DNA of 64,000 nucleotides from Pseudo-nitzschia pungens (taxonomy: Eukaryota > Bacillariophyta > Bacillariophyceae > Bacillariales > Bacillariaceae). The stretch lies in contig CM074769.1 in assembly GCA_037355855.1 (NCBI GenBank), positions 1,550,001 through 1,614,000 on the forward strand, in the 5' to 3' direction. The notes under the pieces were generated by a model. The model was not told where the DNA came from and searched no databases. It saw nothing but the letters and a program-made list of their open reading frames with translations. This document shows, one piece after another, positions 15,572 to 47,808 of this stretch. The translations under genes were made by a program, and so were the position numbers. The first letter of the stretch is position 1; each line of letters starts with the position of its first letter.

Positions 15572-17626
15572 CTAACAAAACACGGACGAGGCTCCGTGCT
15601 CGTCCCGAGCAAAACAACCGTGCAGTCCGTGGGGTATGGCCGACTTGAGCCACGCCGTGGCCACCGGTCCCTCTCTCAGCTCTCGCTCCAGATCAAAGAT
15701 AACGATGGCCGATTTGTCGCTGACCGCGTCGTACATGACCCCGATCAGGTAGGCCGCTCGCTCGTCGTTCGGGTCCCCGCCGTCCTTTGGAACGATCAGC
15801 GGCTCCCCCGCAAACCGGCGCGTGCCGAACCACCAGGCATCGATGGACTCGTTGACGGTCCCCACCGGAACGTCGTCGTCGTCGTTTTGGGTTTGCTCTT
15901 GATTGACGGAGGCCTTCAGAAATCCGCACGGCGCGCTGGAGTCGCCGACCACGTTGCTCGCCGATGCGTACACGTAGTTCGCGTTCTTGGTAGAAAAGTT
16001 GGGATGCACCAGCGGGTGCTCGGCGCAGGCGTTGGCGGCTCCGGGTGCGATTCCCATCTTCACGCAGGTCTTGGTCACCGGATCGATCACCAGTTCCCAC
16101 AGGTAGGTCATCGGGATCGCCTCAAAAACGGGAGCAAAGCCTCCCCAGGCTCCGAGGAAATCTTTTTGATCCGATGGGGGCCAGCCCGAGAACATCGTCC
16201 GGATGTGTCCGGTCTCCGGATCTTCGTAGGCGTGGGAAAAATGGATGGAGAAGCACGCCGGAACCTCCACGACAAAGGGCTCGAATTTGGTCTTGGCCGT
16301 GGGCCGCGGGAGCACGTGCAATGAGACGTTCGCCCGCCCGTCCATTTCGAGGCTGGCAGCGGGACCCTTGTTGCCCGACATGAACTGCAGCTGGTTCAGC
16401 TTCAGCGAGTTGACCTTGAGCATTACGCAGTTTTCGGTCAGAGCCATGTCGTGCGGCGCCAGCTCGCAGTTCTTGAGGACAAAGGTCTCCGAAGCGACGG
16501 GAGAAAAGTCCTCCTCGGCCCATTCCGTCACGGTCACCTCGAGCGAGGCCTCGGTCGGCAGCTGGGACCAGTGCCACCCTACGAGGTTTCCGGTGTCGGG
16601 ACATCGATTCGGATGAGCCGTGTGCGCCGTCCCCCCGAGGAATTCGGGGATGAACTCGTCCGGAATTCCCTTGCCGAGCTTCACGGGAGTGCCGGATTTC
16701 AGGATGCCGCCTAGGTCGTCTTCCCCCATAGATTTGAGCGTGGACGGATCGAGTCTGTGAGGCAGGCCGGCCTCGAACAGCGCCAGCACCTTTCCTCCGA
16801 AGGAGATAACCTGCGTGTTGGCCGAGTTCTTGATTTCTGTTTTCAGGGCGTTTCCCGCCAGCTTGCTAAGCAACGGCACCTTCCATGGGTCCTCGTTGAG
16901 TCCCCTCCGGGGAGGCTCGGCAAATCCCCACGGTCCGGTTCCAAAGGTGGACCGGTACAGAAACTCGTTGGCCTTCGCCTCCGCTTTCATCTCTTCCGTT
17001 TCGACGAACCGGGACAAGAATTTGAATTCACGCCTTCCGTTCGAGTCTGGGGGCGGGAACGTGAGCTTGATGACGAGACCGTCGGCATCGAGTACGTGTT
17101 GGACCCGTTCGCCCCCCACGCCAAATTTTCCCGGTCCGTTCCGGTAAAGGCAGCCGACCAGGTCCTCGGGGATTTGCCCCTCGATCATGCTCTCGTCGAT
17201 GGTGTATTCCGCGTAGCCCGTTTCGGGATCGATGAGATCGGGGTGGTCCGGGGGACTCTGGTACGTGTGCCATGCCCTTCTCCAGTCCCGGGTGATGAAG
17301 ACTCCCCTACCGAGATCGCTCTGGTCTTCTGTCGGGTGCGTTCCGTTCTCGAGTGCCTCCAACAACTCGAGCGGCAGGCGGGAACGGCTCGGATCGTTCA
17401 GTGTCGGTCCCAATTCCCAAAACGTCTTATCGGCATCCGCTCCGGAAACGGATGGCGCATCCGATGTTACTTTTTCGACTGTGGAATGCAGTCGCGTTTG
17501 CGGCCCTGTTGCTACGGCACTGAAACTCGCGGTGATGTGGTTGCCGCTCTGAAACGCATGGACGGTTGTCGACAACCAACCACTGACAAGAAGGATTGAA
17601 ACGATTCCGTTCTTTCCGTCCTTCAT
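15572..17626 (-). CDS. Carotenoid cleavage oxygenase (RPE65/CCD/NCED family), plastid-targeted
   Basis: 684 aa. These non-heme Fe(II) enzymes cleave carotenoid double bonds to apocarotenoids. The iron-ligand segments of the seven-bladed propeller are visible: GGTAHTAHPNRC with GWHW (residues ~330-350), APHDMALTENCVML (~390), FSIHFSHAYEDPETGHI (~465) and PHGLHGCFARDE near the C-terminus. Other family blocks are GCLYRNGPGKFGVGG near residue 155 and AGLPHRLDPSTLKSMGEDDLGG near 290. The N-terminus is a signal peptide ending TTVHA before FQSGN, the diatom plastid pattern. The frame is intact and ends HGASSVFC. Substrate and cleavage position cannot be read from sequence; light-harvesting carotenoids are the likely substrate class (inference). 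Confidence 0.92.
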   Translation of the reverse strand: MKDGKNGIVSILLVSGWLSTTVHAFQSGNHITASFSAVATGPQTRLHSTVEKVTSDAPSVSGADADKTFWELGPTLNDPSRSRLPLELLEALENGTHPTEDQSDLGRGVFITRDWRRAWHTYQSPPDHPDLIDPETGYAEYTIDESMIEGQIPEDLVGCLYRNGPGKFGVGGERVQHVLDADGLVIKLTFPPPDSNGRREFKFLSRFVETEEMKAEAKANEFLYRSTFGTGPWGFAEPPRRGLNEDPWKVPLLSKLAGNALKTEIKNSANTQVISFGGKVLALFEAGLPHRLDPSTLKSMGEDDLGGILKSGTPVKLGKGIPDEFIPEFLGGTAHTAHPNRCPDTGNLVGWHWSQLPTEASLEVTVTEWAEEDFSPVASETFVLKNCELAPHDMALTENCVMLKVNSLKLNQLQFMSGNKGPAASLEMDGRANVSLHVLPRPTAKTKFEPFVVEVPACFSIHFSHAYEDPETGHIRTMFSGWPPSDQKDFLGAWGGFAPVFEAIPMTYLWELVIDPVTKTCVKMGIAPGAANACAEHPLVHPNFSTKNANYVYASASNVVGDSSAPCGFLKASVNQEQTQNDDDDVPVGTVNESIDAWWFGTRRFAGEPLIVPKDGGDPNDERAAYLIGVMYDAVSDKSAIVIFDLERELREGPVATAWLKSAIPHGLHGCFARDEHGASSVFC

Positions 17627-31617: not shown

Positions 31618-31620
31618 CAG
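31618..31620. other. Target-site duplication CAG, left copy
   Basis: CAG immediately before the left tip, matched by CAG at 47806-47808 after the right tip. The inferred empty site is TTTCC-CAG-GAGGAGG. Confidence 0.6.
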
Positions 31621-32121
31621 GAGCGGTCGGAAATAGAAAAACGCGCGCAATGCGCGGCACGTTAAGTTTTTCAAAATGATATGAACTTACCATACATATC
31701 CTACATATTATATCAACGTGTGATCTACGTATTACTTCGTAGGACTCCACGATTCAAAATTTAATGGGGATCGGAAATAGAAAAACGTGCGCACCGCGCG
31801 ACAGGTTAAGTTTTTAAATGATACGTATGAACCTACCGTACATACTACATATATCAATGTGTGATTTACGTAGTAATACGTAGAACGAGATAAGTAACGT
31901 TCATGAAAAAAATCTCCACGATTCAAATTTAAAAGGGGGAACCGGGAAACTAAAAATAGTTTTTTTTTGGTTCACGTAATTAAAATTAAAATTACGTACG
32001 TAATTAATTAATTACGTACGTAATTAATTAATTACGTACGTAATTAATATTACGTACGATTGGATTTAATTACGTACGATTGGATTTAATTACGTACGAT
32101 TGGATTTAATTACGTACGATT
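31621..32121 (+). repeat. Left terminal inverted repeat (about 500 bp)
   Basis: The tip is GAGCGGTCGGAAATAGAAAA. The tip motif recurs in degenerate form near 31770 (ATCGGAAATAGAAAAACG), so the TIR contains an internal duplication. It then carries ATTACGTACGTAATTAATTA runs and four copies of a 20-bp unit TACGTACGATTGGATTTAAT up to about 32121. It matches the reverse complement of 47299-47805 with small indels. Confidence 0.85.
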
Positions 32122-32996
32122 GAAGATTAATTACGTAACTATGTGGCTTAAATAGGTAAAGTAGCCAATTTAACAAGGCAATAATAATTCAAATATGTCC
32201 TTTATAAATGTAAAACATAAGCCTTTTATTAAAGCCTCCAAATTGCTTCAATTTGATGACAAGGACGATGTATGCGCCTTTTAAAGTGCCGCTAACAGCC
32301 ACATATTCGGTACCTTACGTACGTACAATCTACGACTTGCACTAGTAAGTGGCTGTCAGCGCCACTTTAAATGGCGCCTGGTTACCCAAGTTGAAGTAGG
32401 GGCTATCATCTCCACTCTTTACAATCTACGACTTGCACTAGTAAGTGGCTGTCAGCGCCACTTTAAATGGCGCCTGGTTACCCAAGTTGAAGTAGGGGCT
32501 ATCATCTCCACTCTTTACAATCTACGACTTGCACTAGTAAGTGGCTGTCAGCGCCACTTTAAATGGCGCCTGGTTACCCAAGTTGAAGTAGGGGCTATCA
32601 TCTCCACTCTTTAAACTTACCGTTGTACTGCAGAAACGCCCGTTTAAGTGGCGCTAGAAGTCCTCACTCTGTCGGAGCTGAGTACCGTATGTACGTGAGG
32701 TACATACGAATAAGTGGCTGTCAGCGCCACTTTAGATGGCGCCTTTACTGGTAAGATTTAGGCGATACAGTACACACACAGAAGCGCCTCTCATGTTGGC
32801 GCCTACGGTAATTAAGGCTTACCTTTACCAATACAACAAGTGGCCGTGAGCGCGGTCAGAACCAAGACCAACCTGTCACACTTGCATGTCGCTTCAGTTA
32901 TCACGTTATGCAGTGGCTGTCAGCGCCACTTCCAGGGGCGCCTCTACTATTCCAGGGGCGCCTCTAGCGCCATAGTGAATAGCATCACGTTCAACC
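32122..32996. repeat. Left subterminal region: 96-bp triplicate and dyad motifs
   Basis: Three tandem copies of a 96-bp unit start at 32325, 32421 and 32517 and end near 32612. Each contains AAGTGGC-TGTCAGC-GCCACTT followed by TAAATGGCGCC. More degenerate dyads lie at about 32282-32302, 32651, 32712-32745, 32788, 32841 and 32910-32975. There is no gene; the region is non-coding up to the transposase ATG at 32997. Confidence 0.8.
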
Positions 32997-33957
32997 ATGA
33001 TTGCAACTGAAGAGATTTTTGATCAAGAAGCAAGAGAGACTCTTTGCTGGCCAAATCATCGCAGATGGAACTCGAAAGAGAAGGAAAAACGAATCCGTGC
33101 TGTGTTCGGAGCACCTGCTCGATCTAATTGCAGACATATGGAATAAGATCTGGGAGAAGTTGAGAAAGAGAGAGAGGGAAAAGCTTATTGAAGAAGGTGT
33201 TCAATACAAGCATCTTCTCTACGGGCTCGTTCTTATCAAGATATACTCGACAGAAGAAATCCATTGTGCAGTACTTGATTGGCCCTCAACAAAGACATTC
33301 CGTAAGTGGTCTTGGTTCTTCGTTGAAAAAATGTCCGAACTTAAAGATGATGTCATAAAGTTAGAGAATAGATTTGGTGGGTACAAAAGGGGAGACGAGG
33401 TAAAGACCAACACATTCATGTCCGTTGACTGCGTCGATTGTCCTATATTTGAGCCCTGGCCATTCGACAGGAAATGGTTCTCGCAGAAAACAAATGGGCC
33501 CGCATTGAAATATGAAGTAGGAGTCTGTATCAGAACTGCGCATATCGTCTGGATCAATGGTCCTTTCAAAGCCAGCGTGCAAGACCCGGCGATATTCAAA
33601 AACGGATTGAGCGAGAAGCTTGCAGTTGACGAATGCGTCGAAGCTGATGGGATCTACAATATCAGAGAAGATTCTGTTTCAGCGAGGCAACTTAAGAGGC
33701 CTGATATCGGATGGGATTCAGAAGCGAGGAAATCCAAGGCACTTGCTAGGTCGAGGAACGAAAGAGTTAATGGGAAACTCAAAGTCTTCAATGTACTTAC
33801 TACATCCTTTCGGCATATGAAGCCAAGAGAAGCCATGATGCAGAAGCACAAAATTTGCTTCACAGCTGTAGCTGTCATTACGCAGTTGAAAATGGAGGCA
33901 GGGGAAAAAATCGAAGACTGGGAATACGATGACGAATTCAAGCCGCATTACTTCTAG
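32997..33957 (+). CDS. DDE transposase, Harbinger/IS5-like, with an apparent frame break
   Basis: Residues read as the catalytic fold of a large diatom DDE family: MSVDCVDCPIFEPWPFDRKW (first Asp), ALKYEVGVCIRTAHIVWINGPF, KLAVDECVEADGIYN (second Asp), ARSRNERVNGKLKVFNVL (Glu), then FTAVAVITQLKMEAGE. A helix-rich N-terminus precedes it (LIADIWNKIWEKLRKREREK, YKHLLYGLVLIKIYSTEEIH, TFRKWSWFFVEKM). The long frame (33001-33957) begins without ATG. An ATG at 32997 opens a different frame, MIATEEIFDQEARETLCWPN...KRIRAVFGAPAR, which looks like the true N-terminus and meets the long frame near 33105-33115 after a one-base shift. The copy is therefore frame-broken there, unless recoding or an assembly error is involved. 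It probably excises the element by binding its ends (family knowledge). Confidence 0.85.
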
Positions 33958-34170
33958 AAGTCGGCAATCGCCATGAACGCCCCACGGCAACCGCCCTTCT
34001 CCGGAGTCTTTACCGCCACACTCAGGGTCGAACGAAGTCTTCTGTATAATTAAGTGCTCTATTTTAGTGAATAACCTAGAAGTCGGCCGCCGCCCTTCTC
34101 CAGATCGCAAGTTTTACTCTGCTTAATAAGAAACTCAAGTCGTCATGCTATATATGAACGACATAGGGCT

Positions 34171-37008
34171 TTATTTTTTTTTCTGCATCGGTCCAAACAC
34201 TCTGAGCTCCTGCACGTCGGCATCTTCAGTATGATGCTCCCCATTTGTATTTTTTAACATGGCTTCGGCAGCCTCCGCCAATGCTTTGGCAAAAGGAACT
34301 CTGAACTCCTCAAAATGTTTCGGCACATAAAACATCACGATGGGTTTATTTCTACTGTAGCGATTATTCTCCGCCGTTTTCGGATGCTCGACAAGTTGGT
34401 CGAACGTCCCCATGAAGTGGATTGAACAAGGTTTTGAATCCCGATCTTTTTTACTTTGCCATGTAGTGCTTATCTGCAGATTTTGGATGCTCTTCTGAGA
34501 AGTTCGAAACAACCTACGAGCAGTTCTATCTTTGCAACTGTGCACAGTGGTTGGAGGGTCACCAACTTTTCGCTTGCCACCTTTTTTACGGGGTTTTGTA
34601 AGCGGCTGAGTCGGGCAAACGCCTTCAGTTTTCATATCATCAGCTGCAGCTGCTTCTGATGAAGATGCGCCCGGTAGCGAGATGCCAGGCAGAGAGCTGC
34701 CGGTTAGAGATGGGGCCAGCAGAGAATTGCCTGCTGGAGATGCGCCCGGCAGAGAGTCGCCCGGTGGAGATGAGGCCAGCAGAGAGTCACCAAGTGGAGA
34801 TGCGCCCGGCAGAGAGCTGCCGGTTAGAGATGCGGCCAGTAGAGAGTCACCAAGTGGAGATGTGCCCTGCAGAGAGCTGCCGGTTAGAGATGCGGCCAGC
34901 AGAGAGTCAATCGGAGGAGATGTATCTGTAGGAAAAAGTTCTTCACTTTCTGTATCATCATCAACAGATACCCGCATGCCGCCCGGTCGAGGTGTGTCCG
35001 GTAGAGATCTTCCACACAGTGAAGAAGAATACCGCACCAGCTTTGCAAATGGCGACAAAAAATTTGGTTCCTCAAGCAGTGGTTGTGTGGTTTCCGATGA
35101 GGGTGTGGGCATTGCCTGTGTGGCTACCACTGGACTCTGTTTGAAACCACCTGGTGATGGACCAGTTGTTCCAGGCGGATCCCTTACGTTTCGGGTTATC
35201 GGCAACGCCATTTCCTGTGGCGCCGGCTTCCGAGCCGACGCATTTGCCAGTGGCGCTGACTTCCGAGCTGACGCCTCTTCCTGTGGCGCTGACTTCCGAG
35301 CTGACGCCTCTTCCTGTGGCGCTGACTTCCGAGCCGACGCCTCTTCCTGTGGCAACAACTTCCGAGCCGACGCCTTTGCCAGTGGCGCTGACTTCCGAGC
35401 CGACGCCTCTTCCTGTGACAACAGCTTCCGAGCCGACGCCTTTGCCAGTGGCGCTGACTTCCGAGCCGACGCCTCTTCCTGTGGCGCTGGCTTCCGAGCC
35501 GACGCCTTTGCCAGTGGCGCTGACTTCCGAGCCGACGCCTCTTCCTGTGGCGCTGGCTTCCGAGCCGACGCCTTTGCCAGTGGCGCTGACTTCCGAGCCG
35601 ACGCCTCTTCCTGTGGCACCAACTTCCGAGCCGACGCCTTTGCCAGTGGCGCTGACTTCCGAGCCGACGCCTCTTCCTGTGGCACCAACTTCCGAGCCGA
35701 CGCCTTTGCCAGTGGCGCTGACTTCCGAGCCGGCGCCATTACTGGTGGATCCTTCATGGTTGACGGAGCATTCTTTGGAGTCGTCGCCATTGCCGGTGGA
35801 TCCTTAGTCTTCGGAGTCGTTGACTTAGCCGCTGGCGCCTTCTGGGTTGCCATTGGAGTCGGTGGAGTCTTCTTTGCCGGTGGATCCTTCATGGTTGCCA
35901 ATTCAGTCTTCTGAGTTGTCGCCTTTGCCGCTGGCGACTTGTGGGTTGGAGTCGTCGGAGTCGTCAGCTTTGCCTTGTGGGTAGCCGGTGGATCCTTTGG
36001 TGCTAGCGCCATTGGTTGTGGTGCCCCGGAGTCAGCTCCTTTGCCGCTCGCGCCTTTGGTGGTGGGTGTGGTTATTGGGGTAACCTTTTTTTTCTTTGAT
36101 GGTTTCGTGGAATCTGGCTTGCGCTTCCTATTGCGTTTTGTTGGTAAGATGAATCTTGGTTTCGATCGCTTTCTGAGCTGTATGCCATGGTGAAGAGCTG
36201 CAATATCTCCTCCCTCCTCAAATATCAACGGATCAGCGCTTTCATCTGGGCGTACAATCCTGCTTGGTGTTCGGGCAGCTTTTTTCTGAGTTGATTCAAT
36301 GATCGAGCCGGTTGGTGTTTCCGAGACTTTGGGAGCCAGCATGTCGTTTGATGATGTTTCTTCAGAGAGACCTTCCTCGGTACGGTGATCGCCACCTGGA
36401 GTGGTTGGATCGACCGGTGCTGCAACTTGGGGAAAGAGACCTTCCTGGGTACGGTAATCATCGACCGGTGCTGCAACTTGTGGAGAGAGACCTTCCTCGG
36501 TACGGTGATCGCCACCTGGAGTGGTTGGATCGACCGGTGCTGCAACTTGGGGAAAGAGACCTTCCTGGGTACGGTAATCATCGACCGGTGCTGCAACTTG
36601 TGGAGAGAGACCTTCCTGGGTACGGTGATCATCGACCGGTGCTGCAACTTGTGGAGAGAGACCTTCCTGGGTACGGTGATCATCGACTGATGCCGCAGCT
36701 TCTTGAGAGAGATCTTCCTCGGTACGGTGATCGCTACCTCGAATAGTTGGATCGACCGGTGCTGCAACTTGGGGAAAGAGACCTTCCTGGGTACGGTGAT
36801 CATCGACTGATGCCGCAGCTTCTAGAAAGAGATCTTCCTCGGTACGGTGATCGCTACCTTGAATGGTTGGATTATAGTAGGAGGCTGAGTGGGCGCCATC
36901 ATGGGCATCAAAAAATTCGCTGTCGTTAGAGGAATTGGAAGAGTTATCGTTATGTGCGTTCGAAGGGTTGCTTCCCGAAGCAGGCCAAAACCAGGCCATG
37001 GTTTCCAT
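34171..37008 (-). CDS. Cargo protein with three tiers of internal repeats, 945 aa
   Basis: Not recognised. Tier 1 (residues ~50-215): about nine units of DHRTQEGLSPQVAAPVD, acidic. It is followed by basic segments with NLS-like KRNRKRKPDS and SKKKKVTP, and a Thr/Pro/Lys/Ala-rich tract reminiscent of histone H1 tails. Tier 2 (~425-600): alternating SARKSAPLAKA and SARKPAPQEEA 11-mers, about 14 units. Tier 3 (~705-785): S-L-L-A-A-S-L-T-G-S and S-L-P-G-A-S-P-L-G-D units. The C-terminal ~130 residues are non-repetitive and look folded (SIHFMGTFDQLVEHPKTA, KPIVMFYVPKHFEEFRVPFAKALAEAAEAML). A nuclear DNA- or chromatin-associated role is conceivable but unproven. Long frames on the other strand here are shadows of the repeats. 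Confidence 0.7.
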   Translation of the reverse strand: METMAWFWPASGSNPSNAHNDNSSNSSNDSEFFDAHDGAHSASYYNPTIQGSDHRTEEDLFLEAAASVDDHRTQEGLFPQVAAPVDPTIRGSDHRTEEDLSQEAAASVDDHRTQEGLSPQVAAPVDDHRTQEGLSPQVAAPVDDYRTQEGLFPQVAAPVDPTTPGGDHRTEEGLSPQVAAPVDDYRTQEGLFPQVAAPVDPTTPGGDHRTEEGLSEETSSNDMLAPKVSETPTGSIIESTQKKAARTPSRIVRPDESADPLIFEEGGDIAALHHGIQLRKRSKPRFILPTKRNRKRKPDSTKPSKKKKVTPITTPTTKGASGKGADSGAPQPMALAPKDPPATHKAKLTTPTTPTHKSPAAKATTQKTELATMKDPPAKKTPPTPMATQKAPAAKSTTPKTKDPPAMATTPKNAPSTMKDPPVMAPARKSAPLAKASARKLVPQEEASARKSAPLAKASARKLVPQEEASARKSAPLAKASARKPAPQEEASARKSAPLAKASARKPAPQEEASARKSAPLAKASARKLLSQEEASARKSAPLAKASARKLLPQEEASARKSAPQEEASARKSAPQEEASARKSAPLANASARKPAPQEMALPITRNVRDPPGTTGPSPGGFKQSPVVATQAMPTPSSETTQPLLEEPNFLSPFAKLVRYSSSLCGRSLPDTPRPGGMRVSVDDDTESEELFPTDTSPPIDSLLAASLTGSSLQGTSPLGDSLLAASLTGSSLPGASPLGDSLLASSPPGDSLPGASPAGNSLLAPSLTGSSLPGISLPGASSSEAAAADDMKTEGVCPTQPLTKPRKKGGKRKVGDPPTTVHSCKDRTARRLFRTSQKSIQNLQISTTWQSKKDRDSKPCSIHFMGTFDQLVEHPKTAENNRYSRNKPIVMFYVPKHFEEFRVPFAKALAEAAEAMLKNTNGEHHTEDADVQELRVFGPMQKKK
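35215..35735. repeat. 33-bp coding minisatellite (SARK repeat tier)
   Basis: About 15 tandem units combining CTTCCGAGCCGACGCCTCTT and a CTGTGGCGCTGA-like remainder, alternating CCTCTTCCTGTGG and CCTTTGCCAGTGG variants. They encode the SARKxAP 11-mers of the 945-aa protein on the minus strand. Unit homogeneity suggests recent amplification. Confidence 0.8.
36355..36850. repeat. 51/60-bp coding minisatellite (DHRTQEG repeat tier)
   Basis: Repeated GAGAGACCTTCCTCGGTACG and GGATCGACCGGTGCTGCAAC blocks in about nine units, some with an added GTGGTTGG segment. It encodes the acidic N-terminal repeats of the 945-aa protein. Confidence 0.8.
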
Positions 37009-37721
37009 TCAATTGCGGAACAAATTCAAGTCGTTGATTTCAATTCTTTATGAAAGAAGTTTTGAATTTTCTTTATGACAGGACTTTCCCCCTCTTTATC
37101 TTGTCGTAGTGGAGAGCAGCCAACGTCAACGAGCAGCAACCTCCCAGCGTGGACCACAGCAATCTCCAAGCGTGAACGGGCATCATCCTCCCAGCGTGGA
37201 CGAGTATCATCCTTCCAGCGTGGTTTCATGTGTGTTTCAAATTTTGAACGTTAGCCAACTCTATTTGGGTCGGCGACAACCTTTTTGAGTGTCGAGAACT
37301 GGATGAATCCCTCGAGCGCTCCTTTCCAATCCCTCGTCTACGAGAGTCAAGCGCCACCGAGACAGTCGCCGATCTAAAAAGTGTGGATGCTGTTCCTTAA
37401 GTCTCCCAAGCGCCACTGAGACAGTCGCCAGCCTACACTAAGAGTGTCTAAGTGAAAGATGCAGATACGAATACGTAGTAATAATTTTGTTTTGTCTAAC
37501 TACCGGTACGGTACCTGTACTGTACCGTATTAGTTTGACATCGAATTTCGATGATCTACTGACAATTACGGTTTATGATTGGTGAGGGTACGTACGAGTA
37601 ACCTTACTGGTACCAGGGATGACCCCTGACAACCTTGTATCGTTACCGGTAGGGGTAATCTTACCAGTGTACCTTTCGTGGTGCAACGGAATACAAGTTC
37701 TCGTAGTTCTTCTTTTCAATT
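37009..37721. other. Non-coding interior of the TIR element
   Basis: Degenerate CCAGCGTGGAC-type repeats at 37135-37230; two CGCCACTGAGACAGTCGCC-like motifs at about 37350-37430 that resemble the element's dyad family; then CGGTACGGTACCTGTACTGT words. No gene seen. Confidence 0.55.
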
Positions 37722-38252
37722 TTAAGGAGCCTTGTAATTGGGATTGATTCGACCAATCATGCGGAGTCGTTCAGCGCTTTCCTTCATCTCGCGTGCAACG
37801 CGCAAACGCATAGCCGCCCTAGTTTCGCGCTTTTTCTTGGTGTTCTTCTTCAAAACCGAGTTGTTGACTTCATTGATAAGAGCAGCACCGTCGCGAACTC
37901 CTCTGTCATATGCGGCTGCCTCCAAAGAAGCCATGTACTGGTTCATGAACTTGATGTAGTCCGCCTCATTCCAGTCGTCTTCGTCGTCGTCGGCCGCTTC
38001 TTCCTCTGCAGCCTCCTCCTTCGCAGCAGCGTTGACGATGCGCCTGGAGATCTTGTAGATTGCCGCAACAGGTTCAACGACGAGCTTCAAGAACACATAC
38101 GAGATCAAAAGAAGTCCCAAGGAAAGAGCGACACGTTGAAGGGCGCCCTTGTACATCATCCACGCAGCAGCGGCGCCCCCAAGCATGGCGGTGCTGAGAA
38201 CTGGGTGGGTTTGAACCACACTGGGCAAGATTACAGTGGTGTTACTGGACAT
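37722..38252 (-). CDS. Cargo membrane protein, two hydrophobic helices plus charged tail, 176 aa
   Basis: Not recognised. Residues ~18-36 (VLSTAMLGGAAAAWMMYKG) and ~40-65 (VALSLGLLLISYVFLKLVVEPVAAIY) are two adjacent hydrophobic helices, so a hairpin insertion in a membrane is likely. An Ala/Glu/Asp tract follows (KEEAAEEEAADDDEDDWNE), then amphipathic helices (YIKFMNQYMASLEAAAYDRG) and a basic C-terminus (KKNTKKKRETRAAMRLRVAREMKESAERLRM). There is one uninterrupted frame with an ATG context of CATGTCCAG. It lies inside the TIR element between two other unknown cargo genes. Confidence 0.7.
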   Translation of the reverse strand: MSSNTTVILPSVVQTHPVLSTAMLGGAAAAWMMYKGALQRVALSLGLLLISYVFLKLVVEPVAAIYKISRRIVNAAAKEEAAEEEAADDDEDDWNEADYIKFMNQYMASLEAAAYDRGVRDGAALINEVNNSVLKKNTKKKRETRAAMRLRVAREMKESAERLRMIGRINPNYKAP

Positions 38253-38618
38253 GGCGAGACTTGAAAAGAGACTTGAAAAGAGAAAGCGTGAAAGTAGATG
38301 ACAATCGATTTGCGAAAGAGAGCAGTCAATTTTTATGAAGGCAAGCAGTACGATCGATTTTGATGCGAAGGAAGAAGTACAATCGATTTATGCGAAGCAA
38401 GATTTTACCAAAGAAAGTTTCAATCCAGTTTCAAAAAACTATGAGACAGGGTTGGCTCGCAGTTGGTAATGGGTGAAATTCAAAAAACCAACGTTGCAAC
38501 GGAAAACAACGGAAAATTTCTCAAAATCCTTACCTATAACCTTGCGAAATGAGGGTGCGCCTCACATTTTAAGTATCACAAATTATAAAAATTGCATCGT
38601 TAATCAAAAGACAGTACA
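38253..38618. other. Divergent promoter region inside the TIR element
   Basis: 366 bases between divergent cargo genes. GCGAAAGAGA/GCGAAG(G)AAG words recur and CAATCGATTT appears three times (about 38303, 38348 and 38380), possibly a regulatory element shared by the two genes. No gene seen. Confidence 0.45.
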
Positions 38619-39008
38619 ATGGGAAACCAGCCTTCTACCGTGACACCAAACAATGAACCAAGGCTTGCCGAGGAAGATTGCGACGCCAGGGTCAACGAAG
38701 GAAAAGACGACGACTACGTAATGGTCAACGAAGGAAAAGACGACGACTACGTAATGGTCAACGAAGAGAGAGAAGATGTGGTCGTAAGGAAACACGAGTC
38801 TTATGAAGATACCGTTGCCACCATTATTGACGAATATTTCAGTTCAAGCAGAGAAGAAGCGCCCTTGGTCAGAGACCAGCCTTCACTGGAACTCCAGCAG
38901 CCACGCAGCGCGGCGACACGTGTTCCCGCCATGCAGAAAGGCGGTGGGTCAATTCAGATGTCGACTGTCAGGGTGGTGGACGCCACGGAAAAAGGCGAAA
39001 CGGAGTAA
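38619..39008 (+). CDS. Small acidic cargo protein with N-myristoylation motif, 129 aa
   Basis: Starts MGNQPST, which fits the N-myristoylation consensus (Gly2, Ser/Thr6). Two exact tandem copies of an 11-residue unit VNEGKDDDYVM follow, then a third partial (VNEEREDVVV), all from a 33-bp DNA duplication at about 38690-38765. Acidic and helical sequence follows (YEDTVATIIDEYFSSSREE), ending MSTVRVVDATEKGETE. No transmembrane segment. If myristoylated it would sit on a membrane, like the neighbouring hydrophobic cargo protein in divergent orientation; both points are inference. No homologue recognised. Confidence 0.6.
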   Translation: MGNQPSTVTPNNEPRLAEEDCDARVNEGKDDDYVMVNEGKDDDYVMVNEEREDVVVRKHESYEDTVATIIDEYFSSSREEAPLVRDQPSLELQQPRSAATRVPAMQKGGGSIQMSTVRVVDATEKGETE

Positions 39009-39596
39009 GCTGCACGTTATAATGGCGGTGACAGCCCATTTTAGATACTCAACCACAATCTACAATTCACAACACGTGGGCGCCCCTAACGGTGGCGAAT
39101 CCAACGATTTGCTACATAGACTACGAGTATCATAACTTTTTAAATCATAGTAGTATTATTGACTTTCATTACTTTTTTTCTCATGAATCGCTCATCGCTG
39201 CCAACCAGCAGACGACGGGCGTTCTATTCCTACGTATACTAATTTTTTATGAACTGTTCACCGCTACCAACCAGCAGACAGGGAACTATTCTAATCAAGA
39301 CATAAATTGCTCAATGCAGAGCAAGTTCTTCCAGACCTTCTTCCAAGGTTTTGATGGGATCGATCGAAGAAGATGAAATCGAATCATCATCTCCTGAATC
39401 GACGACAGTTCCGCTACCAACCAGCAGACATGGAACTATTCTAATCAAGACCTAAATCGCTCAAATGCAGAGCAAGTTCTTCCAGACCTTCTTCCAAGGT
39501 TTTGATGGGATCGATCGAAGAAGATGAAATCGAATCATCATCTCCTGAATCGACGTCACTCGAATCATCATCTCCTGAATCGAGGTCTCTAAATAG
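39009..39596. repeat. Non-coding interior with a ~149-bp tandem duplication
   Basis: The block from about 39262 to 39405 (CCGCTACCAACCAGCAGACA ... GAATCATCATCTCCTGAATC) is repeated at about 39409-39560 with few changes; the tail GAATCATCATCTCCTGAATC is repeated again. AATGGCGGTGACAGCCCATT at about 39022 and CGCCCCTAACGGTGGCG near 39083 resemble the element's dyad family. No gene seen. Confidence 0.7.
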
Positions 39597-41424
39597 TCAT
39601 AAATCAGTCTGAGAGTTGAACACAGAAGCATTATTGTGAGTTGTGTCATGTGAGTCGTCATGTGAGTCGCCATCGTCATTTTTTGGTTTCTTTTGGCATG
39701 TCTCTACAATGTCCTCGCCAACCTCAACCTCATCGTCATCCACTCTTTTTCTACTGGGCGTCCGGCGGCGTGGTGAGTAATGTCGCGTGGGGCTTCGACC
39801 TCTTTGCGGTGTAGTTTCTTGTCCAGTCGGTTCGCGAACGCCCTGCGGCCGTATGGGGGACGGGGGAATGACTTGTCCAGGCGGTTCGCGAGTGCACAGA
39901 TCCACCGGAACAAGAGGGAGCGACGGGAGCGACGGTCGAGGCTCTACCGTCGGAGGAGCGGGGAGCGACGGTAGAGGCACCGTAGGAGGAGCGGGGAGCG
40001 ACGGTAGAGGCACCGTAGGAGGAGCGGGGAGCGACGGTAGAGGCACCGTCGGAGGAGCGGGGAGCGACGGTAGAGGCACCGTCGGAGGAGCGGGGCGCGA
40101 CGGTAGAGCCTTTACCGTCGGAGGAGGACGAGGGGCAGGAAACTCACCAAAATTGACAGCACCCTGACGACGGCTGACTGTTGCAACAGTTTTTTGACCT
40201 TCATCGGATTCAGTCTTCTCGTAAAAGAGTATCTGGAGAATGGTCGTATACTTCTTGGCTTCTTCGTCTGGGTGATACTCCGATTCATTCGAATCATCTG
40301 AAGCATCCATATCATCAGAATCTTCATTCTTCTTCTCCTTCTTCTTCTTTTCGATTGGGACATCAAACAGATCCAAAACGACTTTTCCGTTTCTGGTGTC
40401 CATCGGATAGTCGAAGATAAAGTTGCCTTCGCTTCGCATCCTGTTGTCTTGGTATTGGGATTTCATATTCTTGACGTTCAGCCCCATACTGTCGTAGACT
40501 CGATGATTCGCAGGATAGCGCTGAATTTCCTCATCGCTCCCGTCTTTCCTGTATGTATCGAGAGTTGTGAGCATCAAGCACCTTTCCATGTACTCTGGCC
40601 ACCTCATTTTTATGTTGAAAGTGTGCTCATTGACCCAAGAGATCTCGAAGTGTCTCAACTTGGCGTCATTATGAACGAGCATTCTCATCAAGCAATATCC
40701 TCTTTGAACTTCGGCTACTTGATCGAATTCGGTCCAACGACCAGAGATCATAATCATAGCGATAGCACCCTTGATTGACTGCTCCATTACGGGGCCGTTA
40801 ATGTGGAGCTCATCGATACGACGGGAGAGGTCGAGGTCAGTGCTACCAGAGCTTTGACGTTTCTTGGGGGTGGGTGTTCTGAGGATTGATTTCAACGGCA
40901 TCTTGCCAGGCTTCTTCAGGTCACTGTCTTCAAGGTCGAATACTACTTGGCCTCCAGAATCAGATTTGGATGTTTCAGATTTGGATGTTTCAGATTCGTA
41001 GTCGGAATCCTCTTCACGTTCAAAAATAGATGGATGTCCCCCGTTCGGACGAACAAGCTTGAGTCCTTGCTTTCGAAGAAGTTCTGCTATTTCTGCCATT
41101 CGCTTGTGGAGAACAAGAAGCGTGAGAAACTTGCAATTGGCATTTGTATTTCTTCACAGTGCTCACCGCCATGCTGCGTGTCGCTAAACGTCTTACCTTT
41201 CCAAAGTGGTAGAATGATCCTTTTTTGATTTTGTCAGATATGGAAGCAGATGAATTCCACTGATCTACTCTTCCAGCTTTATCCGGATCCCAGCCAACCT
41301 TGCCTTCTGTCTCTCGGTAAATCCAGTAGTTGTAGATACAGACTTTACCAACTGAGCTTTGCCTTTCAAATTGTTCTCTCGGCGAAGCCTGTTTCTTCCC
41401 AGCTGCTCCTTTGGTTCGTCCCAT
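39597..41424 (-). CDS. Two-exon cargo protein of unknown function, 577 aa
   Basis: Exon 1 is 41197-41424 (76 codons from MGRTKGAAGKKQASPREQFE). A GTAAGA...CACAAG intron at 41103-41196 (94 nt, phase 0) joins SFYHFGK to RMAEIAELLRKQG; exon 2 runs 41102-39597. The N-terminal half looks folded: KVCIYNYWIYRETEGKVGWD; then MEQSIKGAIAMIMISGRWTEF, GYCLMRMLVHNDAKLRHFEI, MRWPEYMERCLMLTTLDTYR, NFIFDYPMDTRNGKVVLDLF. The C-terminal half is low complexity: an acidic patch, five PPTVPLPSLPA units from a 33-bp minisatellite (about 39940-40110), and an Arg/Ser/Pro stretch (RGRSPTRHYSPRRRTPSRKR) that could be an NLS or RS-like segment. The intron shows it is expressed as eukaryotic mRNA in principle. No family recognised. 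Confidence 0.7.
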
Positions 41425-41484
41425 GACAAATTATGAGAAGTTCGGAACTATTAGTTCGGAACGATTCTTTACACTACTACAAAG

Positions 41485-41559
41485 TTCCTATCAGCTGTCC
41501 CCCGGTTCTACATCCTCAACTACTAATTTCTACGGAAACCGGGGGACAGCTGATAGGAA
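41485..41559. repeat. Perfect 23-bp inverted repeat (hairpin) with 29-nt loop
   Basis: Left arm 41485-41507 (TTCCTATCAGCTG...) and right arm 41537-41559 (...CAGCTGATAGGAA) are exact reverse complements over 23 bp. A second 8-bp pair, CTACGGAA (41530-41537) and TTCCGTAG (41560-41567), brackets the right arm, so two alternative hairpins are possible. Confidence 0.85.
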
Positions 41560-41567
41560 TTCCGTAG

Positions 41568-42375
41568 TATGCCGTGAGGCAAGCCGTTGCGAACTTGCTT
41601 AGAGTTTCGAAACTAGTACTTCATGATCAGGCAAGTTTCTGAGGTCGGTCTTGGTTCTTCAATGTTCAGTACAGTACCAACAGGGAACAAAGCGTCCATT
41701 TGACAGGCGTAGAGCGTTAGTTCGAGGGGCGTTTTCCGAGTAACTTATTTCTACTTAGTGAAAGTACATCATGTAATTAGCACGGTTCGTAATCGTACGA
41801 GGAACAAAGCGTCCATTTGACGGGCGTTGATACTCGAACTGTGGAAGAGACGGGCGTTGATACTTGAACTATGAAAGAGCATGGGTTAATTACTAATCGT
41901 AAGTGGGATGCCCGATCTTGTTCTCGTTCAGTGGATGTTAGCGCCACCTCATCAAGACGAGCTTCTCCGAGTAAGGCTATTCTAATCGTAAGTAGGAAGG
42001 CCGATCTTGTTCTCGTTCAGTGGCTATGTGCGCTAAGTTACCGGTATGTCTATCGGTAATTTACCGGTACGGTAAGAACTTATTCTCCTTGAGAATTGTT
42101 ACGGTTACGAGTGCTGCAGGCGCCAACGTGAGAGGCGCTTCAAGAATGAAATTAACGCCCCTTAACGTGGCGCTCAATGAACGGCGCCATTTTAAGTGAC
42201 CATGCTTGCTAGGGCGCTCGCTAAAGTGCTCGCGTGCTCACTGCAGGGCTGGGCATCCGGTTCTAGTACTTATTGTACACTATGACCATACTCCACGGTA
42301 GTTGGAACTGTATCCCATATTCAGTAGCGTAGCAACCTTAACCTTGTAGAACAATGCTACAGTGTGAACCTTGTA
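41568..42375. other. Non-coding repeat-rich interior of the TIR element
   Basis: Direct repeats: GAACAAAGCGTCCATTTGAC at about 41687 and 41812; GACGGGCGTTGATACT twice at about 41818-41860; CCGATCTTGTTCTCGTTCAG at about 41909 and 42000. Dyad-family motifs occur at about 41935, 42118-42150 and 42165-42205. No gene seen. Confidence 0.6.
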
Positions 42376-43545
42376 CTGCTAAGAGCTGCTGGGGTGTGTA
42401 GCTCTGGTACAAATCCTACTTGAAGGGCCTAGTATCCTGTTTAGCATCCAGTTCAATATCTCCCCTGGCCTGATCAGTTCCGTCTATCTGTTAGCACACT
42501 AAATATCTTGTAATAAAGAGCTCCTAAGAGCTGTTGGGGTATGTAGCTCTGGTACAAATCCTACTTAAGGGGCCTAGCATCCTGTTTAGCATCCAGTTCA
42601 ATATCCCCCCTGGCGAAGTTCCGTCTATCTGTTAGCACACTAAATATCTTGTAATAAAGAGCTCCTAAGAGCTGCTGGGGTATGTAGCTCTGGTACAAAT
42701 CCTACTTAAGGGGCCTAGCATCCTGTCTAACATCCAGTTCAATATCCCCCTGGCCTGATCAGTTCCGTCTATCTGTTAGCACACTAAATATCTTGTAATA
42801 AAGAGCTCCTAAGAGCTGCTGGGGTATGTAGCTCTGGTACAAATCCTACTTAAGGGGCCTAGCATCCTGTTTAGCACCCAGTTCAATATCCCCCTGGCCT
42901 GATCAGTTCCGTCTATCTGTTAGCACACTAAATATCTTGTAATAAAGAGCTCCTAAGAGCTGCTGGGGTATGTAGCTCTGGTACAAATCCTACTTAAGGG
43001 GCCTAGCATCCTGTTTAGCACCCAGTTCAATATCCCCCCTGGCGAAGTTCCGTCTATCTGTTAGCACACTAAATATCTTGTAATAAAGAGCTCCTAAGAG
43101 CTGCTGGGGTATGTAGCTCTGGTACAAATCCTACTTAAGGGGCCTAGCATCCTGTTTAGCACCCAGTTCAATATCCCCCCTGGCCTGATCAGTTCCGTCT
43201 ATCTGTTAGCACACTAAATATCTTGTAATAAAGAGCTCCTAAGAGCTGCTGGGGTATGTAGCTCTGGTACAAATCCTACTTAAGGGGCCTAGCATCCTGT
43301 TTAGCACCCAGTTCAATATCCCCCCTGGCCTGATCAGTTCCGTCTATCTGTTAGCACACTAAATATCTTGTAATAAAGAGCTCCTAAGAGCTGCTGGGGT
43401 ATGTAGCTCTGGTACAAATCCTACTTAAGGGGCCTAGCATCCTGTTTAGCATCCAGTTCAATATCCCCCCTGGCGAAGTTCCGTCTATCTGTTAGCACAC
43501 TAAATATCTTGTAATAAAGAGCTCCTAAGAGCTTAGGAGTTGGGG
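42376..43545. repeat. Tandem array of eight ~143-bp units with a three-unit higher-order pattern
   Basis: Units begin CTCCTAAGAGCTG at 42521, 42662, 42806, 42950, 43091, 43236 and 43381, with a first divergent unit from about 42378 and a terminal fragment at 43522. Spacings are 141, 144, 144, 141, 145, 145 and 141. The 141-bp form lacks the CTGATCAG segment (CTGGCGAAGTTCCG instead). The order long-long-short is repeated, so a ~430-bp block has been duplicated. The array is non-coding. Each unit contains GAGCTC and AGAGCT palindromic words. Confidence 0.88.
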
Positions 43546-44680
43546 TTCGTACATATCTATCCTACTAGAGGGCCCTACTACCATCCATTCGTACTATCAC
43601 CCTGTAACACTCTAAGGTAGAAATTCGGAGTAGTATGAATAATTGTGTGTTAATTCACTTTACGAGATGGGATTGAAATTAAAGAGAGGAAATAATGAGC
43701 GATGAGGTCATCTCTCCCTGTATATAACATATATTCTGTATGTAACCTTAATCGTATAATCGCTCTCTTCTGCATGCCTGTTTGTACATACCAGATTTTC
43801 GTACTTGAATACCTTATATATATCTGAATCCCATGTGGGATTCGTTTAATTATTAATTCGTAACACTACTAGCCTACGCTAGCATGTTACACACCCAAGG
43901 GGTGCTGTAAGGTACGGTGTCTGAATCTTGAACCTGTACCGCCTTGTACAGTGCTGGTGTAGGTTTCGTACATTGGCTGTTAGCGCCGTTTCAAGCGCCG
44001 GTGACGAAAATAATTGTGGATGGAGGAGTGTGGGAACTCAGGTTTTTGATTGAGTGACGGGAATCATGGAACTACTCGTACCGCCTTTTACAGTACTGGT
44101 GTAGGTTTCGTAAATTGGCTGTTAGCGCCGCTTCTTCCACAAAATTCTTTACAAACGGTACGATATGTACTGTAGAATCGCCCGTTAAAGTGGCGCTATG
44201 TGACCGTTAGCGCCACTTTCATCGGCGTCTCGTGGCTTATGATAATTAATTACTATGCGCTGAGTTTCGATTTTTTTGAAAATTTGCTAATATAAATATA
44301 TAGTAATGAAGATCGAATATTCCATATCAGGGCTTAATGGATGGGAAAGCCCCTCAAAAGGACGCCATGTGCCCCGTACGGTAACTCCCACAGCGAAAAT
44401 TTGATCGTTCCATGATTCACGTCACTCAAAAACCTGAGTTCCCCACGCTGAGTTCCCCACGCTGAGTTCCCCACGCTGAGTTCCCACGCTCCTCCATCCA
44501 CACTCCCCTCCACGTTAACAGCTCACGCGTTACTTTGCTCACCACTTCCTTCTCTCACAACTTCCTTCTCTGCAACTTGTTTTCACTTCTCTCACAACTT
44601 CCTTCTCTGCAACTTGTTTTCACTTTGCTCACAACTTCCTCCAGCTCTCTGCAACTACAAGTACCTTCTAAACCACTCCC
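43546..44680. other. Non-coding interior with inverted and direct repeats; 5' region of the 486-aa gene
   Basis: A ~55-bp block (GTACCGCCTTGTACAGTGCT ...) at about 43937-43987 is repeated at about 44081-44131. An inverted pair, about 44016-44074 and 44408-44508 (GTGGATGGAGGAGTGTG versus CACGCTCCTCCATCCAC), flanks ~330 bp and may be a nested miniature element. CTGAGTTCCCCACG is tandemly repeated four times at about 44430-44485. A ~32-bp ACAACTTCCTTCTCTGCAAC repeat precedes the ATG at 44681. No gene seen before it. Confidence 0.65.
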
Positions 44681-46141
44681 ATGGAAAACTACGTCGAACA
44701 AATCCTCCGCATCGTGCATGCCGTCCAGGCCATTTCCCCTAACGCGATGCCCGAACTAACTAACCGTGTCCGCCTAGCGGCCGCTCGGGCAATCGCCAGC
44801 ACCCAGGGCGCAATTGGATCCGCCGCTCCTGCTGTCCTTGCGGTCCTCTCAGATGACACTAATGATCCTCCCCATGCAAACGCTGATCTCCCGGCAGACG
44901 CTGATCTCCAGGCTAATGACAATCCCGCACCTAACGCTGATCTCCCGGCAGACGCTGATCTCCAGGCTAACGACAATCCCCCACCTAATGTTGCTGATCT
45001 CCCGGAAGACGCTGATCTCCAGGCTAATGACAATCCCGCACCTAACGCTGATCTCCCGGCAGACGCTGATCTCCCGGCAGACGCTGATCTCCCGGACGCT
45101 GATCTCCAGGCTAATGACAATCCCCCACCTAATGCTGCTGATCTCCCGGAAGACGCTGATCTCCAGGCTAATGACAATCCCCCACCTAATGCTGCTGATC
45201 TCCCGGAAGACGCTGATCTCCAGGCTAATGACAATCCCCCACCTGATGCTGCTGATCTCCCGGCAAACGCTGATCTCCAGGCTAATGAAGATCTCCCGGC
45301 AAACGCTGATCTCCTGATCGCCGGAGACCCTTTCGCCGAGGACGATTCGAGTGTCGAGGTCCCGCCTCCCGGCGAGCCTGATGCAATCGAGGAGGACGAT
45401 TCGAGCGTCGAGGCTCCCGACGTTGAGATCGACCACGCGAACGAGCCCCCTTCCGGTTTGATTCAACTCAACTACCGCCGAAATATGACCAAACGCCTCA
45501 TCCGACCCCAGGCCGTTCTTGACGAGCTTGCGCGCCGTGACATCATTGGCGACCGCGCTGCGAACGTCTATGCTGTCCTCCGCCAGGGCCGCCCTACGAT
45601 GCAGTCAAACGCCGCCACCGGCGCTGCCTTCATCCTAGCCATCCTCGGCCTACCCAGACTCGACTACGGCCTCAACATTCCGGGTGCTGTAGGTTCTAGC
45701 GGCACTTCTATCGGCCCTGCCACATTCCATAACCACCTCCTCAATCACCTGCGGAATCACAATAGCCTCGTCTTTTCCGCCGTGTCTAACCTCCCCATCC
45801 ACGAAACGCTCGCCGGGGTCCGGGAAACTATCCCCAACGTCCCCAAGCCAACCCCTACCACGCTCCAGCTTGTAACTGTCGCGTTCGCGCCGACCGCGAG
45901 GGACAACCTCCCTCACCGCGGCACCGCGTATTTGCGCTTCGCTGTCCTTAATGGCCTTCTTTTTGCCTTCAACGCGTCCTGCTACGCCCATTTGCTCGGC
46001 GCACGGCTTCAAGAATACCTTCAAAACCCCTTCCACCAGGCCCACTACGCCAGCAACCTTTTCTTCAGATTACAGACCAGAGACCGGACTGGCGAACGTC
46101 GTCCCTATACCCACGTTGAAACCCGTTACTACTGGGTCTAA
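44681..46141 (+). CDS. Cargo protein with acidic Ala/Asp/Pro/Asn repeat tract, 486 aa
   Basis: Not recognised. The N-terminal ~60 residues are helical (MENYVEQILRIVHAVQAISP, NRVRLAAARAIASTQGAIGS). Residues ~65-215 are a repeat of NPPPNAADLPEDADLQAND and shorter DLPADADLQ units, from a ~60-bp minisatellite (about 44880-45320). After an acidic stretch the last ~220 residues appear folded: LIQLNYRRNMTKRLIRPQAV, DELARRDIIGDRAANVYAVL, NAATGAAFILAILGLPRLDY, LRFAVLNGLLFAFNASCYAH, GARLQEYLQNPFHQAHYASN. It ends RPYTHVETRYYWV. A ~76-bp block including the stop is duplicated downstream (46077-46220), leaving a second copy of the C-terminal residues as non-coding remnant. Confidence 0.7.
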   Translation: MENYVEQILRIVHAVQAISPNAMPELTNRVRLAAARAIASTQGAIGSAAPAVLAVLSDDTNDPPHANADLPADADLQANDNPAPNADLPADADLQANDNPPPNVADLPEDADLQANDNPAPNADLPADADLPADADLPDADLQANDNPPPNAADLPEDADLQANDNPPPNAADLPEDADLQANDNPPPDAADLPANADLQANEDLPANADLLIAGDPFAEDDSSVEVPPPGEPDAIEEDDSSVEAPDVEIDHANEPPSGLIQLNYRRNMTKRLIRPQAVLDELARRDIIGDRAANVYAVLRQGRPTMQSNAATGAAFILAILGLPRLDYGLNIPGAVGSSGTSIGPATFHNHLLNHLRNHNSLVFSAVSNLPIHETLAGVRETIPNVPKPTPTTLQLVTVAFAPTARDNLPHRGTAYLRFAVLNGLLFAFNASCYAHLLGARLQEYLQNPFHQAHYASNLFFRLQTRDRTGERRPYTHVETRYYWV

Positions 46142-47298
46142 CCGCCGCACACCACCGACCAGAGACCGGACTGGCGAACGTCGTCCCTATACCCATGTCG
46201 AAACCCGTTACTGGGTCTAACCCCCGCACACCACCGCCGAGGCCTCCTTTTCTTCAGACTATGCCTATACCCACGTCGAAACCCGTTGACCTCTCCCTTT
46301 CTCTTGAGCTGCTTGCATTTTATGGGCCCTTAGTAGGATAGAAATATACCATAGCTAGATGCTGATAGCACTGTAACCTTTACCGGTAATCTTAGTCCTA
46401 ATAGGCAGCGGTAACCTTACAGTTCCAGAGGCGCCATTTAAAGTGGCGCCGACAGCCACTTTTTAGTAAGGTTACCGGTACGTACGTTCGGTAAGGTTAA
46501 GCTCCCAGCCTACGATTTTTCGGTCTTAGCGCCACTTAAAGGGGCGTTTCTACCTTAACCTTAGCGTTAAGATCTTACTTACGGTAAGGTTAAGTTTAGA
46601 AGTGGCGCTGACAGAGTGGCGCTGACAGCCATAAAGGGGCGTTACCTTAGGGTTTACAAACGCAAGCTTTGAAGTGGCGCTGACAGCCACTGTAACGTAC
46701 GGTAAGATCTTAGTCCGACTGTACTCCGTACCGTATATCTGTGGTTCTAGTACGTAAGTTACCGGTAAGTTAACCTTACGCAGCAGAGTGACTTTTAGCG
46801 CCACTTAAAGGGGCGTTTCATGGTAAGTTTAGAAGTGCGCTGACTTACCTGTAACCCTAAACCCTAACTTACCTTACCTTACCAGTAAAGGCGCCATTGA
46901 AAGTGGCGCCGACAGCGCCCCGCACGTAAACCAGTTGGGATATTAGTACGTACGTACCGAATAAGTGGCTATCAGCGGCACTTTGAATGGCGCGTAGAGT
47001 GACTTTTAGCGCCACTAGAAGTGCGCTGACTTACCTGTAACCCTAAACCCTAACTTACCTTACCTCACCAGTAAAGGCGCCATTGAAAGTGGCGCCGACA
47101 GCCCCCAGTACGTAAACCAGTTGGGATATTAGTACGTACGTACCGAATAAGTGGCTATCAGCGGCACTTTGAATGGCGCGTATACCTTATACGTCTATAG
47201 TAATAGCCTACGCGCAACATTGATAGGCTTAAGTATATTTTTAATGTTATTTGGCTTATTTAATTATGATATAAGCCACTCAAGAGCTTAATTGTGAA
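46142..47298. repeat. Right subterminal region: dyad motifs and a ~200-bp tandem duplication
   Basis: After a duplicate of the preceding gene's 3' end (46155-46220) the sequence is non-coding. Dyad-family motifs are dense: about 46428-46460, 46525-46545, 46600-46640, 46673-46692, 46793-46812, 46886-46915, 46965-47000, 47085-47105 and 47150-47180. A block at about 46786-46998 is duplicated at about 46996-47181, each copy containing AACCCTAAACCCTAAC, two telomere-like repeats. It is the right-hand counterpart of the region at 32122-32996. Confidence 0.75.
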
Positions 47299-47805
47299 AT
47301 CGTGCGTAATTAAATCCAATCGTACGTAATTAAATCCAATCGTACGTAATTAAATCCAATCGTACGTAATATTAATTACGTACGTAATTAAATCCAATCG
47401 TACGTAATTAATTAATTACGTACGTAATTTTAATTTTAATTACGTACGTTACGTAAAGAAAACCAATTTTTAGTTTCCCGGTGCCCCCTTTTTTAAATTT
47501 GAATCGTGGAGATTTTTTCATGAACGTTACTTATCTCGTTCTACGTATTAATACGTAAATCACACATTTATATATGTAGAATGTACGGTAAGTTCATACG
47601 TATCATTTTGAAAAAACTTAACCTGTCGCGCGGTGCGCACGTTTTTCTATTTCCGACCGCTTTTTAAATTCACTTATCACGTTCTACGTAGTAATACGTA
47701 GATCACACGTTGATATATGTAGTATGTACGGTAAGTTCATACGTACCATTTTGAAAAAACTTAACCTTTTGCGCGGTGCGCGCGTTTTTCTATTTCCGAC
47801 CGCTC
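47299..47805 (-). repeat. Right terminal inverted repeat (about 500 bp)
   Basis: Reverse complement of the left TIR: ATCCAATCGTACGTAATTAA units at the inner side, the block AACGTTACTTATCTCGTTCT shared with the left, then two copies of the tip motif (TTTTTCTATTTCCGACCGC at about 47641-47662 and 47785-47803). It ends CCGCTC at 47805. Confidence 0.85.
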
Positions 47806-47808
47806 CAG

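Follow-up and report, generated by a model that had tools for sequence, protein, structure and literature searches.

Transposons of the Harbinger-type (PHIS) superfamily average ~3.5-4.8 kb per group (with a reported mean of ~4.1 kb), and their termini, although ranging from 5 to 1042 bp, are given as shorter than 60 bp in ~93% of cases (PMC4482050). NuwaI, defined in the same account by its CWG targets, has termini of 12-61 bp and a mean length of ~4.5 kb, and is reported there only in animals (PMC4482050). Cut-and-paste transposition itself reportedly becomes less efficient once the cargo exceeds ~6 kb (PMC6431247). Here, we describe an element of 16,185 bp from the diatom Pseudo-nitzschia pungens (GenBank assembly GCA_037355855.1), found in a 64-kb window (the whole stretch of DNA analysed, 64,000 nucleotides of contig CM074769.1; C12:1550001-1614000 in our numbering) of a genome searched over 66.9 Mb and 28 contigs. 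Its best explanation, which we hold with high confidence, is a giant, accessory-gene-bearing variant of the PHIS superfamily.

The element shares with PIF/Harbinger and PHIS transposons a DDE_Tnp_4 transposase, a second gene, inverted termini and a 3-bp target duplication with a free middle base, and departs from their description in its 16-kb length, its ~500-bp termini and four further genes; moreover, no Myb/SANT domain was found in the partner protein, a difference that applies to NuwaI as well (PMC4482050). Its CNG targets set it apart from narrow-sense PIF/Harbinger (described with TWA) and recall NuwaI, in which the 3-bp C-G duplication is CWG. The targets here are CNG (CCG and CGG being used too) and the termini reach ~500 bp instead of being short; the element cannot be filed as NuwaI (PMC4482050). 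The giant KDZ, EnSpm and Sola-1 transposons of Ectocarpus resemble it (>10 kb, cut-and-paste type, mostly unknown-function accessory genes, algal host) but belong to other superfamilies, while the brown-algal Harbingers of that account are described with ANT or TNA targets and a pair of genes lying tail-to-tail (PMC12477816). HarbingerS (SET domain) and PHISTA (TET/JBP) are Harbinger relatives with an accessory gene; the accessory domains described there are known ones, whereas the four accessory proteins here are without Pfam domains (PMC12730594).

A giant Harbinger was not recognised in the open-licence literature searched (judged mostly from listings), and, as far as these searches show, the combination of giant size, several accessory genes, long termini, CNG targets, a diatom host and recent multiplication is new. 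With its recent multiplication to six or more near-identical long copies, this 16-kb element shows that PHIS transposons, too, are able to carry several genes, and through it a diatom would join the algae in which giant transposons with accessory genes are reported. Its accessory genes offer material for studying what a transposon gains by carrying additional genes, and the middle-base mismatches reported below may let the cut-and-join chemistry of such transposases be read from genome sequence alone.

Bounds, copies and target duplications

The window copy (copy A) is bounded by the tips GAGCGGTCGGAAATAGAAAA at 31621 and, inverted, at 47805, with CAG outside both, and its ~500-bp termini form an inverted repeat piecewise, with 75-100% complementarity in the listed pairings of one end with the other. 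A preliminary, sequence-only reading of the window had described these tips, flanks and termini, an internal DDE transposase, an intron-containing gene and five cargo genes. The present analysis bears out all of these except the last count (four accessory genes stand, and the fifth, a 945-amino-acid (aa) repeat protein, is the family's usual second gene and not cargo), and shows in addition that the transposase frame of the window copy is broken. The features are as follows (window positions):

31618..31620, unstranded: left 3-bp target duplication, CAG
31621..32121, plus strand: left terminal inverted repeat, ~500 bp
32122..32996, unstranded: left subterminal region, containing a 96-bp tandem repeat as well as recurrent AGCGCCACTT-type motifs
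32997..33957, plus strand: gene of the DDE_Tnp_4 transposase, whose frame is interrupted close to the start in the window copy
34171..37008, minus strand: 945-aa repeat protein, the usual partner gene of the family, tail-to-tail with the transposase
37722..38252, minus strand: 176-aa protein with one strongly hydrophobic segment; accessory gene
38619..39008, plus strand: 129-aa protein starting MGNQPST; accessory gene
39597..41424, minus strand: 577-aa two-exon accessory gene (exon 1 41197-41424, intron 41103-41196, exon 2 39597-41102)
42376..43533, unstranded: ~145-bp tandem repeat, copy number varying among element copies
44681..46141, plus strand: 486-aa protein, accessory gene; C-terminal domain common to genes adjoining recombinase-like retroelement open reading frames (ORFs)
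46142..47297, unstranded: right subterminal region with repeated AGCGCCACTT-type motifs
47298..47805, minus strand: right terminal inverted repeat
47806..47808, unstranded: right 3-bp target duplication, CAG

Matches to the 501-bp left terminus lie at five other places over positions 1-501 (99-100% identity) and at a sixth over 1-496 (96%), and all six have an inverted partner of 86-89%; as 40 of 177 candidates were scored, the number of places is a lower bound. Counting the window copy, the genome has six or more long copies (14.3-16.2 kb) and a deletion derivative of 1.2 kb, at seven unrelated places with the same tips and differing flanks:

Copy A, C12: 16,185 bp, the window copy
Copy B, C6: 16,176 bp
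Copy C, C9: 16,040 bp
Copy D, C8: 1,214 bp, deletion derivative keeping ~0.6 kb of each end
Copy E, C10: 14,349 bp
Copy F, C2:6334606-6350251: 15,646 bp
Copy G, C7:2185283-2200471: 15,189 bp

Between the six long copies 9 to 92 aligned positions differ (99.39-99.94% identity; the values with F are approximate, because the alignment placed its right end ~0.95 kb beyond the true one). The 96-bp, 33-bp and ~145-bp tandem repeats hold a number of the larger differences, and copy E lacks 1.7 kb in total. The 16,185-bp unit is one mobile element that recently multiplied as a whole. As a separate observation, copies G and F are the most diverged: of the 68 substitutions private to G, 31 are C>T or G>A, and of the 20 private to F, 15 are, a pattern that is possibly due to decay driven by cytosine methylation.

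To find empty sites, the two flanks of an insertion were joined and matched against the genome, for A-E and G but not for F, with 40 of 233 candidates scored. Copy E interrupts a repeat, and 30 other places match across its junction at 80-99% identity. Four of these were read at the junction: three are TCCTCCGACCC and one is TCCTCCAACCC, copy E itself being TCCTCAG, element, CCGACCC. Compared with the empty-site junctions, 3 bp are duplicated and the left middle base is changed. No second place across the junction was seen for A, B, C, D and G among the candidates scored, a null result of little weight because only that fraction was scored and the repeat around E filled most of the list. Copy F sits in a minisatellite whose commonest uninterrupted forms (within the DNA examined) have CTG before TATTATCGACGCG; here, CTG is kept on the right side and CAG stands on the left.

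The tip pattern has 58+56 matches genome-wide (0+0 in the backward control). The 100 listed of these 114 tip places include 34 facing neighbours less than 20 kb apart, of which five come from the long element (D and four of its long copies) and the remaining 29 are other pairs; of the latter, 20 were read directly, four through the loci L020-L023, and five were left out of the duplication count. Among the 20 pairs the duplications are identical in 14, differ at the middle base only in five and at the third base in one (CCG/CCA), although for the longer pairs the ends may have been wrongly paired. Those of L020-L023 are all identical and count as three, since L020 and L021 share flanks. At L022 the true right end is the nearer tip, which has a mismatch, so that exact-tip pairing can mis-pair. 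In the long element itself, the duplications of A, C and G are identical, and those of B, D, E and F differ at the middle base. Thus, 30 independent insertions comprise 20 identical duplications, nine with a middle-base and one with a third-base difference, and CNG flanks both sides in 28 (the exceptions being G, with CAA/CAA, and the CCG/CCA pair). CAG and CTG are the commonest targets, CCG and CGG occurring too, and the terminal inverted repeats with 3-bp target duplications are those expected of PHIS.

The 29 other facing pairs measure 1.8-13.4 kb (23 are under 5 kb) and contain none of the 25 other transposase matches in the genome, while each of the four listed long copies contains one match. 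In L020-L023 (2.7-3.7 kb) terminal sequence is shared with the long element, and each holds seven to nine AGCGCCACTT-type sites. The long element has 32 such motifs at <=1 mismatch (seven of them inside the repeats of the 945-aa gene) where 1.2 are expected (the maximum of 100 simulations being 5), and the other 48 kb of the window have 3. The motif is likely a binding site. Two larger same-end elements were considered as cargo variants and rejected: those at C8:2750281 (13.4 kb, read whole; four AGCGCCACTT-type sites, all in its second part) and C8:3213263 (11.8 kb, first 8 kb read) hold, by eye, retrotransposon-like ORFs and for that reason look like nested insertions; the reading of interiors of pairs above 5 kb covered these two stretches. 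L020 (C8:2497061-2501746) and L021 (C2:5508913-5513617) carry the same short insertion within the same flanks, in inverse orientation on two contigs, and so represent a segmental duplication.

Genes of the element

The transposase matches DDE_Tnp_4 (PF13359, E=1.9e-7, above the curated cut-off), the transposase domain by which PHIS is recognised. Read from ATG, its frame has 49 codons in copy A, 319 in B, C, E and F, and 320 in G, and relatives with 30-40% identity occur at 25 other places. The partner protein varies with repeat number between 842 and 945 aa among the copies, and its C-terminal ~140 aa recur elsewhere in the genome. Of the eight best places of this C-terminal part outside the copies (E <= 1e-17), four (C5:5747359, C5:5559106, C7:1810103 and C2:6588861) are <2 kb from a transposase match, the check having covered these eight places and not the 19 weaker rows; at L046 a partner-type ORF adjoins a 383-aa DDE_Tnp_4 transposase. 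Since the C-terminal domain recurs beside other Harbinger transposases, and the two genes are ordered tail-to-tail as described in brown-algal Harbingers (PMC12477816), the 945-aa protein is a core gene of the family and not cargo.

The 577-, 176- and 129-aa proteins were found in this genome only within the six long copies. In the 577-aa gene a 94-nt GT-AG intron (41103-41196, the splice being computed from sequence) joins two exons in phase. The large protein database was queried with the 500-aa exon-2 product, the 486-aa and the 176-aa protein (the best 7990 and 7999 candidates being scored for the first two). The exon-2 product has two metagenome relatives (P0001, P0002), and P0001 aligns with both exons (64% and 57%), running on through the intron position; no relatives were found for the 176-aa protein, nor for the 486-aa protein among its best 7999 candidates. 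In these data, the match of the 577-aa protein in another organism is the one indication that an accessory gene has been under long-term selection. Copy F has two stops in the 577-aa gene (its exon 2 amounting to 387 codons), and a structure model of the family, built from four rows, was unusable (mean predicted local distance difference test score, pLDDT, 38.5). The 176-aa protein contains a single hydrophobic stretch (mean of 2.38 over 19 residues, starting at residue 41), and its single-sequence model (pLDDT 69.5, predicted template modelling score 0.28) tells no more than that the protein is helical. The start of the 129-aa protein, MGNQPST, fits an N-myristoylation-type pattern.

The 486-aa protein (whose frame is cut to 415 codons in copy E) occurs in the six copies, at 12 other places with 45-54% identity, and as one 55-residue fragment. 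Just upstream of 11 of the 12 relatives, on the same strand, lies an ORF that we presume, by motif only, to be a tyrosine recombinase; Pfam and PDB did not confirm this (the latter giving a chance match, E=1.5). The reverse-transcriptase reading of genes adjoining the relatives is likewise our assumption from motifs, and these ORFs have no Pfam match. A profile of the 486-aa family found nothing better than E=0.25 among solved structures. Other relatives of the recombinase-like ORF (~40% identity) are without a listed 486-aa relative. The retroelement-like family that combines this ORF with a downstream 486-aa-related one can be seen at C12:2175174-2183173 (L045), C1:3250404-3260403 (L044) and nine more places.

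Proposed movement and rival explanations

We reason that the DDE transposase and its 945-aa partner would recognise the ends (and probably the subterminal AGCGCCACTT sites too) and cut with a 3-nt stagger at the duplicated CNG, so that the excised element would carry 3-nt donor overhangs. At a new CNG a carried overhang could be joined directly, so that one side would keep the middle base of the donor: pairing would be required of the outer C and G, the middle base may mismatch, and replication would then fix different middle bases on the two sides. The same machinery, acting in trans, probably moves the shorter elements with shared ends, and the four other genes (577, 176, 129 and 486 aa) would serve the element rather than being captured host genes. 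The mPing study proposes a staggered cut at the 3-bp duplication with 5' overhangs and a free middle base (PMC4561436). The 3-nt stagger at a duplicated target is thus common to mPing/Pong and our scheme; there, excision repair was followed in yeast, whereas here it is deduced from mismatched genomic duplications (PMC4561436).

We infer the carry-over of donor overhangs from these mismatches, and the nine middle-base differences among 30 insertions fit it. That they arose instead because copies recombined, because a base mutated later or because ends were wrongly paired is a rival to which we assign little short of an even chance: recombination between elements at CNG sites would mix middle bases too, a single changed base per site can be a mutation (as may be the case in copy E), and exact-tip pairing can choose a wrong partner, as at L022; yet nine of the ten mismatches fall at the middle base, in both E and F it is the left base that departs from the empty site, and recombination is disfavoured for copy E because its flanks form one continuous site. 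The nature of the unit leaves less room for doubt. The giant cargo-mobilising DNA transposon proposed by the sequence-only reading is supported by the other full copies and the paralogous empty site (of copy E) that it had suggested looking for, both of which this genome contains. The contrary case raised with it, two independent miniature inverted-repeat transposable elements in opposite orientation around ordinary host genes, has virtually no chance of being correct: many short elements do carry the same ends, but the same whole interior recurs between them in six near-identical units whose flanks differ, and an empty site exists for copy E. Segmental duplication, which did copy one short family insertion with its flanks (L020 and L021), is scarcely credible for the long element, as similarity ends at the tips at all seven places (no shared flanks being seen beyond them) and 3-bp target duplications are observed. 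We regard it as extremely unlikely that the unit derives from a virus of the Polinton or virophage type and is mobilised by Harbinger ends. Its size near 16 kb, the long inverted termini, two membrane-type proteins and a weak PHROGs match (the 176-aa protein to the terminase small subunit family, E=0.015, taken as chance) would suit such an origin, whereas Pfam shows no polymerase, integrase, packaging or capsid domain, and the 3-bp duplications and the DDE_Tnp_4 transposase speak against it. All PHROGs matches are weak (E 0.015 or worse), viral contigs, scanned three times with proteins and once with the tip pattern, gave nothing for these queries, and neither the protein-primed DNA polymerase B nor the retroviral-type integrase that mark Polinton/Maverick was found by Pfam in the six proteins; the domesticated or virus-derived unit entertained by the earlier reading is, hence, unsupported.

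The giant PHIS element itself has to be weighed against several observations that do not favour it. The window copy cannot make its own transposase from its broken frame, 10 of the 30 target duplications are not exact matches, Pfam found no domain, and thus no Myb/SANT domain, in the 945-aa partner, and no transcript of the element was seen. The accessory genes vary near-neutrally among copies, with selection unseen at that scale: 53 amino-acid-changing and 20 silent variable sites stand against an opportunity of 3.2:1 (exon 1 of the 577-aa gene, without variable sites, was left out; the 53 include sites within repeat alignments and the two stops of copy F). Transposon copies usually drift after insertion, and such drift would account for this variation, which neither supports nor excludes function. 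A host origin of the accessory genes also keeps some room, because the searches did not cover other diatom genomes. That these are host genes captured as cargo, by a Pack-type process in an autonomous element, we nonetheless consider unlikely: capture is known for DNA transposons and the context of the metagenome relatives of the 577-aa protein was unseen, but the 577-, 176- and 129-aa proteins have no host paralogue in this genome, the 486-aa relatives adjoin a retroelement-like gene at 11 of 12 places, and no sign of captured host genes was found in the genome searched. Pack-TYPE elements consist of host-gene pieces without a transposase; here, a transposase is present and three accessory genes are without host paralogues in this genome. 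A bolder version of the giant-element explanation, in which a Harbinger lineage built a life-cycle module (the conserved 577-aa protein, the 486-aa one that another class of mobile element also has, and the two membrane-suited ones) and passes between nuclei or cells as a nascent transmissible agent, is very unlikely.

Other genes were noticed in passing. The window holds, at 8621-12514, an ORF of 1297 aa in which a reverse transcriptase domain of copia type is recognised (RVT_2, E=2.5e-14) and, at 15572-17626, a 684-aa ORF of the RPE65 / carotenoid oxygenase family (E=4.4e-81). The silicon-transporter family PF03842 has 11 matches in the genome, all above the cut-off, as suits a diatom, and four match stretches at C3:7803825-7808126 lie in one 1696-aa open frame, a fused tandem transporter gene.

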